Part shown: positions 10,723-16,246 of the stretch, one piece after another
How positions within the stretch are numbered: position 1 is the stretch's first letter
Layout: the number at the start of each line of letters is the position of its first letter
Assembly: GCA_028714235.1 (NCBI GenBank)
Contig: JAQTMQ010000005.1
Location: forward strand, 1-45,247
Direction of reading: 5' to 3'
Length of the DNA stretch: 45,247 nt
DNA from: Candidatus Iainarchaeum sp.
Lineage (GTDB): Archaea > Micrarchaeota > Micrarchaeia > Burarchaeales > Fermentimicrarchaeaceae
Program-made: the position numbers and the translations under genes
The notes under the pieces: generated by a model
What the model was told of the DNA's origin: nothing
What the model saw: only the letters and a program-made list of their open reading frames with translations
The model's database searches: none

Positions 10723-11001
10723 ATGGCCAAAAACGGGGTTTTCAAGAGCAAGGTCTTGCGGTATCCGCGCCTGGACACGGTTCTCATGGTGGAAGATGCA
10801 ATACGCGCCTCGAAGGGGGACAAGACTTCGACTGCGGTTTGGAAATCGCTTCGCAAAAAAGTCATGTGGCAGACGTTTCGCACCATACTCGACTATCTCG
10901 AGTATTCCGGGAAAATCCTTATGTCCCGGGATAAGCGCATTGTATGGATAGGCAACGAGCGGCTTCTTTCAAAGGTCAGGAAGCACGGAGTGGAAGCGTG
11001 A
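10723..11001 (+). CDS. Small winged-helix-like protein, candidate antitoxin
   Basis: SKGDKTSTAVWKSLRKKVMWQTFRTILDYLEYSGKILMSRDKRIVWI looks wHTH-like; GTGA overlap with the next gene. Confidence 0.55.
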   Translation: MAKNGVFKSKVLRYPRLDTVLMVEDAIRASKGDKTSTAVWKSLRKKVMWQTFRTILDYLEYSGKILMSRDKRIVWIGNERLLSKVRKHGVEA

Positions 11002-11351
11002 CCTACGGTGGGCGGGCGCTTGGCGTCAGGTTTGTCGATTCCCGGCTTTACGAAGCGTATGCGGAGCTGGCGAACGGGACCCGCGAGGACAAAGCACTGC
11101 GCAACTCAATAGAGAAGGCCATCCAAAAGCTCAAGGAAAACCCTGTTTGCGGAAAGAGGATTCAAAGCGGCCTGTGGCCAAAAGAATATGTCCGCCGCTA
11201 CGGAATCAACAACCTTTGGAAGTGTAACCTGCTCGGGGGCTGGAGGCTTGTCTACACCGTCGTTGGCGACAAGGTGGAGATAATCTCGGTCCTGCTTGAA
11301 TGGATGAGCCACAAGGAATACGAAAGGCGGTTTGGCTACAAGCCGGGATAA
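10998..11351 (+). CDS. RelE/ParE-superfamily-like protein, candidate toxin
   Basis: EKAIQKLKENPVCGKRIQSGLWPKEYVRRYGINNLWKCNLLGGWRLVYTVVGDKVEIISVLLEWMSHKEYERRFGY; GTG start at 10998 overlaps the upstream TGA (supplied ORF opens at 10944). Confidence 0.65.
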   Translation: MTYGGRALGVRFVDSRLYEAYAELANGTREDKALRNSIEKAIQKLKENPVCGKRIQSGLWPKEYVRRYGINNLWKCNLLGGWRLVYTVVGDKVEIISVLLEWMSHKEYERRFGYKPG

Positions 11352-12118: not shown

Positions 12119-13078
12119 ATGCCCTTCAATCCAGAAAAATTCGTTTCGCAGGCAATCGCCGACATCAAGGCGCAGGTCGGCGAAGGGAAAGCGGTCATCG
12201 CGGTTTCCGGGGGCGTTGATTCCACGGTCACCGCCGTGCTGATGGGGCGCGCGCTCGGCGAGAACTGCGTCGCCGTGTTCGTCGACACGGGGTACATGAG
12301 GAAAAACGAGCCGGAGACAATCAGGGGCGTCGCGAAAAAAGCCGGCATCAACCTGCGCTTCATTGACGCCAAAGCCGAGTTTTATTCCGCGCTGGAAGGC
12401 GTAACCGACCCCGAGCGGAAGCGCAAGGTCATCGGCGAAAGGTTCATCCGCATTTTCGAGAAGGTCGCGCGCGAGGAGAAGGCGAAGTTTTTGGGGCAGG
12501 GGACGCTCGCCCCGGACTGGATTGAGAGCGGCAGCGGCCTGCGCGCGACCATCAAAAGCCACCACAACGTGGGCGGGCTTCCCAAGGACATGGACTTGAA
12601 GCTCGTGGAGCCCGTGCGGGAGCTTTACAAGGACGAGGTCAGGCAGGTGGGAAAGGCGCTCGGGCTTCCGGCGGAGGTTTACGGGAGGCAGCCCTTCCCG
12701 GGCCCGGGCCTTGCCATCAGGATAATGGGGGAAGCGACCCCCGAGAAAGCGGAAATCATCCGTGAGGCGTGCGCAATCGTGGAAGAGGAGGTGGAGAAAG
12801 CGGCGCGGGAAGGCAGGATGGAGCTTCCCTGGCAGTATTTCGCCGTCATCCTGCCCGTGAAAAGCGTGGGGGTTCTCGGGGACGCGCGCGCGTACGGGTG
12901 CACGGTCGCCGTGCGCGCGGTGGAAAGCGTTGACTGCATGACCGCGAAGGCGAGCAGGATTCCGCCGGAAGTCCTGGAAAGGGTCGCGGACAGGATTACG
13001 AGGCAGCTGAAGCATTGCGTGAACCGCGTGGTCTACGACGTAACGTCGAAGCCGCCGGCGACAATCGAATGGGAATGA
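12119..13078 (+). CDS. guaAb: GMP synthase, ATP-pyrophosphatase subunit B
   Basis: AVSGGVDSTVTAVLMGRALG, FVDTGYMRKNE, SHHNVGGLPKDMDLKLVEPVRELYKDEVR, GRQPFPGPGLAIRIMGE, C-terminal TSKPPATIEWE. Confidence 0.97.
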   Translation: MPFNPEKFVSQAIADIKAQVGEGKAVIAVSGGVDSTVTAVLMGRALGENCVAVFVDTGYMRKNEPETIRGVAKKAGINLRFIDAKAEFYSALEGVTDPERKRKVIGERFIRIFEKVAREEKAKFLGQGTLAPDWIESGSGLRATIKSHHNVGGLPKDMDLKLVEPVRELYKDEVRQVGKALGLPAEVYGRQPFPGPGLAIRIMGEATPEKAEIIREACAIVEEEVEKAAREGRMELPWQYFAVILPVKSVGVLGDARAYGCTVAVRAVESVDCMTAKASRIPPEVLERVADRITRQLKHCVNRVVYDVTSKPPATIEWE

Positions 13079-13139
13079 GATTTTGACGGAGCTGTTTTCG
13101 CGGAGAAAACTCGCGCCGGCGGCAATCGAATGGGAATGA
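13054..13139 (+). repeat. 25-bp direct repeat (24/25 identical), copies at 13054-13078 and 13115-13139
   Basis: GCCGGCGACAATCGAATGGGAATGA and GCCGGCGGCAATCGAATGGGAATGA. Confidence 0.85.
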
Positions 13140-13148
13140 TGATACAAG

Positions 13149-13445
13149 GTGGTTTGCATGATGTCGGAAATACCAGCAAAAATCGTGAAACTGGAGCAGA
13201 AGGAGACGGACAAGGAAATCCTGCGCGCGGGAATAATCGCCGAGCTTGACGCGGTGAGCCTCTACGAGCAGATGGCGGCCATGACGAGGGACCCTAAAAT
13301 CAAGGCGGTCCTCATGGACATCGCGAAGGAGGAGAAGACGCACGCCGGCGAATTCCAGGCGCTCCTCGTCCAGCTTGACCCGCAGCAGGGGCAGGAGCTC
13401 GCGGCCGGCAAAAAAGAGGTTGACAAGCTCGCGGGCGAGCTTTAG
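13149..13445 (+). CDS. Small ferritin-like (rubrerythrin / encapsulated-ferritin-like) protein
   Basis: ELDAVSLYEQMAAMTRDPKIKAVLMDIAKEEKTHAGEFQALLVQLDPQQGQELAAGKKEV, with E...EExxH spacing. Confidence 0.75.
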   Translation: MVCMMSEIPAKIVKLEQKETDKEILRAGIIAELDAVSLYEQMAAMTRDPKIKAVLMDIAKEEKTHAGEFQALLVQLDPQQGQELAAGKKEVDKLAGEL

Positions 13446-13461
13446 GCGGTCGCGGATTCGC

Positions 13462-14028
13462 ATGCAAGTCGCCATAGTGGATTTCGGCTCGCAGTGGACG
13501 CACCGCATACTGCGCACCCTCAAATACCTTGACGCGGAAGCGGAAATCGTCCCGGTTTCCACCCCGTTTGAGGACGTCAGGCACGCTTCCGCCCTGATTT
13601 TCTCGGGTGGCGCGATAAGCATCGCCATGGGCGACGCGGACCAGACGGGCAACGCGCGCGGGTTCCTCGACCGGTTCGAGGGCCCGGTTCTCGGCGTTTG
13701 CGCGGGACAGCAGTTCATCGGCATGCATTTCGGGGGGAAGGCGCGCCCGTCCGCGGGCCCTGAATTCGGCAAGGTGGAAGTCGTCGTTGACGACAAGGAC
13801 GAGCTGTTCCAGGGGCTTCCGGACAGGTTCACCGCCTGGGCGAGCCACAACGACGAGGTGGTGGACACCCCGGGCTTCAGGATTCTCGCGCATTCGGCGG
13901 ACTGCTCGAACCACGCCTTCAAGTGCCTCTCGCGCCCAATTTACGGGACGCTGTTCCACCCGGAAGTGGAGCACACCGAGCACGGGGAAGAGATTTATGC
14001 CAACTTCCTCAAGCTGTGCAAGCGGTAA
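13462..14028 (+). CDS. guaAa: GMP synthase, glutamine amidotransferase subunit A
   Basis: MQVAIVDFGSQWTHRILRTL, PVLGVCAGQQFIGMHFGG, ASHNDEVVDTPG, GTLFHPEVEHTEHGEEIYANF. Confidence 0.95.
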   Translation: MQVAIVDFGSQWTHRILRTLKYLDAEAEIVPVSTPFEDVRHASALIFSGGAISIAMGDADQTGNARGFLDRFEGPVLGVCAGQQFIGMHFGGKARPSAGPEFGKVEVVVDDKDELFQGLPDRFTAWASHNDEVVDTPGFRILAHSADCSNHAFKCLSRPIYGTLFHPEVEHTEHGEEIYANFLKLCKR

Positions 14029-15506: not shown

Positions 15507-15738
15507 GCAGGGGTGGCAGAGCCAGGTCGGGCCCTTTTCGGTTGCTTCATCCTCGCTTGCGCTCGGATTCGCACATCCTAAAAGCGCCCGCGGAAAAGCA
15601 AGAACCGGCACGGGCCCCTGAAAAATGCGACGGACTCAAGTCAAATCCCTTTCTTGGAAAGAAAGGTCTTTGAGAGCCCCAAAGAAAGGAGAAATCCGTT
15701 GCCTTAGGGCTGCGTGGGTTCAAATCCCTCCCCCTGCA
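15507..15738 (+). tRNA. tRNA-Leu(CAA) with two putative introns: about 15529-15622 (D-loop) and about 15641-15693 (after anticodon)
   Basis: Acceptor GCAGGGG (15507-15513)/CCCCTGC (15731-15737) plus A73; GGTTCAAATCC T-loop; ACGGA-CTCAAG...A-TCCGT anticodon arm; removing the two insertions gives an 85-nt class II tRNA. Confidence 0.88.
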
Positions 15739-15751
15739 CTCAGCCTAAAAG

Positions 15752-16246
15752 TCATCGTTTTGCAGGCCTGAGGTTTTTCGGGAGTCGCCTGGACCGCCAC
15801 CCTTTCCATGCCGGCCTGAGGGGTTCTGGAAGGCGGCGGGTTTGCCACTTCAGCTCTTTCGAGATTCTAGCCTCGGCGTCGGCAGGGTTGGCTGCCGCAA
15901 CTGCTTTGAGGGCGTAGTAGGCAGCGCCGAAGGCGTGTTCGGCAACGTGCGCGGTTGCCACCGCCTGGCCTGCCGCATGCGCGGCAAAGCACGCGGCGCC
16001 ATTTTCTTTCGCAGCTTTTGCGGCCGCGTGGGCTGAAAGCGAAGCCCCGCGGATATCCGCCATCCTGAACACGTCCGTGCGAACCCAGGTTCGGCCCGCG
16101 TCTATGGCTTTCCGGGGCCGGTCGTCCTTCGGGTATGCCTTCTCGAAAAATGGAATCACCCGTTCGGCGCAGTCCGCAGCCCAGACTGCCAGCAGCCTCT
16201 GGTCCCGCTTGCTAATTTTTCCCATCGCTTTTTCTTTAATCCCCAA
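15752..16246 (-). CDS. Putative immunity protein, Imm-5-like family
   Basis: KRDQRLLAVWAADCAERVIPFFEKAYPKDDRPRKAIDAGRTW...AAGQAVATAHVAEHAFGAAYYALKAV. Confidence 0.75.
   Translation of the reverse strand: MGIKEKAMGKISKRDQRLLAVWAADCAERVIPFFEKAYPKDDRPRKAIDAGRTWVRTDVFRMADIRGASLSAHAAAKAAKENGAACFAAHAAGQAVATAHVAEHAFGAAYYALKAVAAANPADAEARISKELKWQTRRLPEPLRPAWKGWRSRRLPKNLRPAKR

Follow-up and report, generated by a model that had tools for sequence, protein, structure and literature searches.

A tRNA-Leu(CAA) gene of a Micrarchaeota genome with two introns, the first of which carries a copy of a dispersed, structured element

Introduction

How does a tRNA gene come to be interrupted twice, and can it still be functional? 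This question is raised by positions 15507-15738 (forward strand) of the window, as the whole analysed stretch of 45,247 nt is called here, which read as a single tRNA-Leu(CAA) gene with two introns of 94 and 53 nt. Transposition of tRNA introns is known in Thermoproteales from work of 2010, as far as this is rendered in later papers (PMC4090602, PMC4033280). Its mechanism in archaea has been stated as unknown (PMC4090602), and snapshots of tRNA intron insertion events have been called for (PMC4033280).

Structure of the gene and its introns

Splicing in silico joins the three exons (Table 1) to 85 nt, the mature length predicted in the initial annotation, and the product is called tRNA-Leu(CAA) by ARAGORN. 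The acceptor strands and the positions of helices and bulges given in that annotation all match the sequence, and its description of a good bulge-helix-bulge motif (BHB) at the D-loop intron was borne out by RNAfold, whose minimum-energy structure for intron 1 with its flanks is exactly this BHB. An equally good motif appeared in 2 of 20,000 dinucleotide shuffles of intron 1 (exons fixed) and at 6 of 45,153 window positions. Intron 1 fulfils two structural criteria of archaeal BHB introns, namely two 3-nt bulges around a 4-bp helix and restoration of a standard tRNA on removal. The second insertion had been placed at about 15641-15693, at site 37/38, and this position stands; the motif needs correction, because the minimum-energy fold, with CTC/GAG as central helix and AAA as 3' bulge, lacks a 5' bulge of 3 nt and the motif is only relaxed. 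The sister gene tRNA-Leu(CAG) has an intron at the same D-loop site, with AACC/GGTT as BHB helix against GGCCC/GGGCC in Leu(CAA), a compensated difference.

No tRNA was called by ARAGORN, with or without introns allowed, on the raw window; Rfam gave no match there at the gathering threshold, and only chance-level matches at the locus at a permissive one. These misses of the raw gene are to be expected, as it is doubly interrupted. A group I or group II intron is not indicated, as Rfam detected no catalytic core of this kind at the gathering level in the window.

Table 1. Features of the tRNA-Leu(CAA) locus (window positions)
Feature	Position	Strand	Basis
Exon 1: acceptor 5' strand, D-stem 5' strand, D-loop up to C20a	15507..15528	+	sequence; ARAGORN on spliced form; contiguous orthologues
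Intron 1, 94 nt, D-loop, non-canonical; harbours dispersed element	15529..15622	+	fold, element model, orthologues, shuffles
Exon 2: D-loop end, D-stem 3' strand, anticodon stem 5' strand, anticodon CAA, G37	15623..15640	+	spliced tRNA; orthologue comparison
Intron 2, 53 nt, 37/38, relaxed motif	15641..15693	+	fold; site comparison in relatives
Exon 3: base 38, anticodon stem 3' strand, variable arm, T-arm, acceptor 3' strand, discriminator A	15694..15738	+	spliced tRNA; orthologue comparison
BHB central helix, exon strand CAGG	15523..15526	+	sequence; RNAfold
5' bulge TC^G, predicted cut after 15528	15527..15529	+	sequence; RNAfold
BHB intron helix, 5' strand GGCCC	15530..15534	+	RNAfold
BHB intron helix, 3' strand GGGCC	15612..15616	+	RNAfold
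BHB central helix, intron strand CCTG	15617..15620	+	RNAfold
3' bulge AA^A, predicted cut after 15622	15621..15623	+	RNAfold
Element copy (GGGCCCTTTTCGG...CCTAAAAGCGCCCGCGGAAAA); 5' end = 5' splice site	15529..15597	+	held-out R1 match
Site-specific 3' adaptor of intron 1, from element tail to 3' splice site; gives 3' BHB strands	15598..15622	+	segment varies between copies
Element bases 1-3, GGG, complementary to tail triplet CCC	15529..15531	+	triplet rule
Tail triplet CCC	15587..15589	+	triplet rule

Orthologues in related genomes

Relatives within the same GTDB family were searched with the predicted mature tRNA. An uninterrupted 85-nt tRNA-Leu(CAA) with 87-88% identity is present in four of them (G001, G005, G006, G007). 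The gene of G003 is contiguous over bases 1-71 and then has a T-loop intron only, and that of G002 is contiguous over bases 1-40, followed by an element copy (see below) at 37/38 and then a T-loop intron. As all six are contiguous there, the D-loop site is empty in 6/6, and the 37/38 site of intron 2 is empty in all except G002. These empty D-loop sites and the call on the spliced form support the doubly interrupted tRNA-Leu(CAA) which had been proposed from the window alone.

A dispersed element in intron 1

The initial annotation missed the membership of intron 1, as a diverged copy, in a family of dispersed elements. Introns of other tRNAs in the same genome have common ends, AACCCTTTTCC and GTAAAAGCGTTAACGGAAAA, and a search for the 20-nt 3' end that allowed up to 3 mismatches gave 14 occurrences in the genome (reversed control 0). 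A covariance model, R1, built from 13 copies with the window copy left out, matches intron 1 at 15530-15597 with 44.1 bits (E 2.3e-8 for the genome, 1e-9 for the window). Intron 2 was also considered as a copy and rejected, having no R1 match. The element consensus can be written as NRRCCCTTTTCC-(variable hairpin)-GGTAAAAGCG-Y-NN-R-CGGAAAA.

By our own reading the genome has about 17 clear copies, of which 14 are introns, two directly follow tRNA 3' ends (tRNA-Ala(CGC) and tRNA-Leu(CAG)) and one lies 4 nt after RNase P RNA, itself identified by an Rfam match. Among the intron positions are the D-loop (Leu(CAA), Leu(CAG)), the anticodon arm and loop, and the T-loop (Ser(UGA)). Two criteria for transposed tRNA introns of the Thermoproteales kind are fulfilled, namely similar intron sequence across different tRNAs and positions, and empty orthologous sites in relatives.

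Ends of the element

Among 60 distinct matches, drawn from three genomes, the triplet ahead of CCCTTT is the reverse complement of the one that follows AAAAGCG in 55. When partners are shuffled, 10.2 matches comply on average and never more than 21 in 10,000 rounds. The tail base next to the triplet equals the third of the triplet bases in 57/60. Kinship among copies is left in by this shuffle; about a dozen different triplets obey the rule, and so does the window copy. In the wider phylum it is kept in 13 of 20 loci retrieved by the tail pattern, several of the others being chance matches. On viral contigs none of the 80 loci retrieved with an 18-nt tail pattern has a matching 5' half (triplet rule 0/80); these matches are therefore regarded as chance and serve as a control.

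At first the covarying triplet was taken for exon sequence of the target; this was abandoned, because in clean cases it consists of intron bases 1-3. In the clean splicings (Leu(CAG) twice, Ser(CGA), Pro(CGG), Thr(CGU), the window Leu(CAA) and G002 Leu(CAA)) the intron starts with the element NRRCCC, and in the Ser(UGA) T-loop intron the start is one base earlier. The exact junctions in Val(CAC), Glu(CUC), Leu(GAG) and Asp(GUC) are uncertain, since their hand-spliced forms, with junctions that are probably off by one, were not cleanly called by ARAGORN. An element-like start is found within the first bases after the 3' end in 9 of 34 tRNAs of the genome, Gly(GCC) and Glu(CUC) being weak cases, against a background of 1.7%. 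Intron starts and tRNA 3'-end starts together indicate that the 5' end of the element tends to coincide with RNA processing ends.

Copies in relatives and outside tRNA genes

The R1 model has 41 matches in G002, 15 in G003 and none in the five genomes of genus g2. Many of the G002 copies are intergenic or placed after genes. Three of them are flanked by direct duplications of 25, 33 and 49 bp, with edges 0-4 nt from the element and duplication scores of 25-34, versus a best score of 14 among 494 mismatched flank pairs; insertion signatures are nevertheless sparse, as adjacent flanking duplications were seen in only 3 of about 20 non-tRNA copies examined. Most G003 matches are mini copies of 36-40 nt, and those inspected lie inside tRNAs. 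Of 295 phylum genomes, 36 contain the tail pattern; its distribution is patchy, some families having several copies, and its control gave at most one match per strand in any phylum genome.

Origin and spread of the family

The likeness of the introns could have arisen by gene conversion or duplication among tRNA genes, in which case the family would consist of vertically inherited introns and not of a mobile element. The D-loop site common to Leu(CAA) and Leu(CAG) is in keeping with such an origin, as is the location of most copies of this genome in tRNAs. It is nonetheless improbable, given that copies are found in unrelated tRNAs at the D-loop, 37/38 and T-loop, begin immediately behind tRNA 3' ends more often than background, follow RNase P RNA, lie in intergenic DNA of G002, and occupy sites that are empty in sister genomes. 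We infer instead that the family is or was mobile and has spread by transposition.

The element, which starts at the 5' splice site, contributes the first strand of the BHB helix on the intron side (RRCC), and the site-specific stretch 3' of it contributes the second. The means of spread are likewise a matter of inference. The coincidence of the element 5' end with 5' splice sites and mature tRNA 3' ends hints at a route at the RNA level, in which free element RNA is joined to 3' ends of stable RNAs or to 5' exons and copied back into DNA, as an archaeal counterpart of introners, a mobile element that would give rise to tRNA introns. This is put forward only tentatively and we hold it to be rather unlikely; the long duplications and the lack of any known transposase or other mobility enzyme leave the route undecided.

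Function and splicing of the gene

With considerable confidence the locus can be regarded as a functional, apparently single-copy tRNA-Leu(CAA) gene, the introns of which are most likely cut by an epsilon2 endonuclease and the D-loop intron of which is an element copy; splicing in the cell is inferred, without RNA data. The gene might instead be a dead pseudogene whose function is supplied by another one, and a T50-T64 mismatch in the T-stem, together with the failure of ARAGORN and Rfam on the raw gene, could be read in this way. The same mismatch is, however, present in G002, and exon differences from the orthologues keep compensatory pairs (against G001, as read from the alignment, in the D-stem, A12-T23 to G12-C23, the anticodon stem and the variable arm). 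By our own reading, two dozen or more further tRNAs in this genome also contain interruptions, and no other CAA gene was found, which leaves a pseudogene very improbable.

By its own terms, an intact tRNA-Leu(CAA) elsewhere, with this locus unexpressed, would have refuted the initial annotation. RNA-family, element and similarity searches of the genome recovered no such second gene; it is not strictly excluded, because the assembly is estimated to be 91.8% complete. Five leucine tRNAs were found, with one gene each for UAA (L011), UAG (L021), CAG, GAG and CAA, the last in the window. An assembly or sequencing artefact, conceivable in a draft of 43 contigs, is hardly credible when the ends of the insert form a BHB that restores the exact orthologous tRNA and further copies of the element lie on many contigs as well as in other genomes.

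As to the enzyme, a splicing endonuclease of broad specificity had been named as something to look for, and one of epsilon2 type with conserved catalytic and ARMAN-specific-loop residues is indeed encoded. The sole PF01974 protein of the genome (388 aa) aligns along nearly its full length with 4fz2, the endonuclease of ARMAN-2 (E 6.7e-137); Y235, H250 and K281 align with catalytic Y236, H251 and K282, and Y159/K160 with the ARMAN-specific-loop residues Y160/K161. The catalytic and loop residues are those given in PMC12397907, where the loop residues are linked to a broad substrate range. The Micrarchaeota epsilon2 type is known to cut non-canonical BHBs. Such an enzyme would excise both introns, and the exons would presumably be joined by the usual archaeal ligase. 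The epsilon2 endonuclease is present in 8/8 genomes of the family, including five that are free of the element, so the enzyme alone does not account for the element.

Other tRNA inserts and neighbouring genes

Several further inserts were noticed. A tRNA-Ser(UGA) gene (L036, contig C6, about 38.5-38.8 kb) reads as a three-intron gene (anticodon arm, 37/38, T-loop); its spliced form is Ser(UGA) by ARAGORN and its T-loop intron is an element copy. T-loop introns occur at nine further loci, in Lys, Gly, Arg, Ala and Asp tRNAs of this genome and in Leu(CAA) of G002 and G003, and some have hairpins, e.g. GCGATTTGCGCTTCGGCGCAAATGCGCC, in common with loops of dispersed element copies. Another repeat family (ACCCCCGATGC...GCGTCGGTTCCGATACCTCCG) lies beside or inside tRNA genes (L091, L092, and the 3' sides of L021 and L011), with tandem copies after Leu(UAG). 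The tRNA-Leu(CAG) of relatives (L132 in G002; L202) has an insert after about position 8 (GCAGGGGT-AATGCGG...CCCGAAC-GCC), an unusual intron site, and an initiator tRNA-Met (L015, contig C12, 17.6 kb) has an apparent insert near position 8, between acceptor and D-arm.

Elsewhere in the window, a ParE-type toxin-like gene (Pfam PF05016) is located at 10944-11351, and a small ORF upstream of it may be an antitoxin. GMP synthase (12119-14028) is split over two genes, one for the ATP-pyrophosphatase/C-terminal part and one for the glutamine amidotransferase, and a third ORF separates the two. For a flanking protein, the relatives that bear a name come mostly from Candidatus Micrarchaeota MAGs. Directly downstream of tRNA-Leu(CAA) and convergent with it lies a gene for an Imm5-like putative immunity protein (15752-16246, minus strand; PF21805, E 3e-40).

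Relation to known systems and significance

The archaeal non-canonical BHB tRNA introns of ARMAN-1/2 and Thermoproteales are like those described here in their junction BHB, their positions in the D-, anticodon and T-arms, the occurrence of several introns per gene and the broad-specificity endonuclease (PMC4033280, PMC12397907); the difference is that the intron here belongs to a family of dispersed elements with conserved sequence and structure. The transposed introns of Thermoproteales, as far as they are portrayed in the later papers cited above, share similar introns at different positions and tRNAs and gain after lineage split. On the same partial basis the present family differs in belonging to another phylum, in having copies also outside tRNA genes (RNA 3' ends, intergenic), and in its defined core and covarying ends. 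For Caldiarchaeum, too, the gain of an intron has been described, as has a 5' fragment of tRNA-Thr close to a mobile element (PMC3293823). A 19-nt tRNA-Thr 5' fragment followed by an element copy and a complete tRNA-Thr gene in G002 (L128:617-735) may be compared with this. The proposal for Caldiarchaeum concerns a 1.8-kb recombinase-encoding element (PMC3293823), whereas the elements here are 36-140 nt long and without evident coding capacity.

MITE and REP palindromic repeats are also short, non-coding, palindromic and dispersed. In contrast to them the present elements serve as tRNA introns, and neither a link to a transposase nor a short target duplication has been shown; as to terminal inverted repeats, the ends pair as a covarying stem, but there are a conserved C-C mismatch and an extra 3' tail. 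In titles and abstracts of the open-licence literature on Micrarchaeota tRNA introns no such element is reported. Transposition of tRNA introns is known in Thermoproteales, and what is new is a structured Micrarchaeota family that lives also outside tRNAs.

In this small-genome lineage most of the identified tRNA genes depend on splicing, and the case of tRNA-Leu(CAA) shows the reason why gene finders miss such genes. The covarying end structure offers a target for mutation. With its diverged copies, empty sister sites, and copies in tRNAs, at RNA 3' ends and in intergenic DNA, the family provides snapshots of insertion and a tangible starting point for studying the spread of tRNA introns in archaea.
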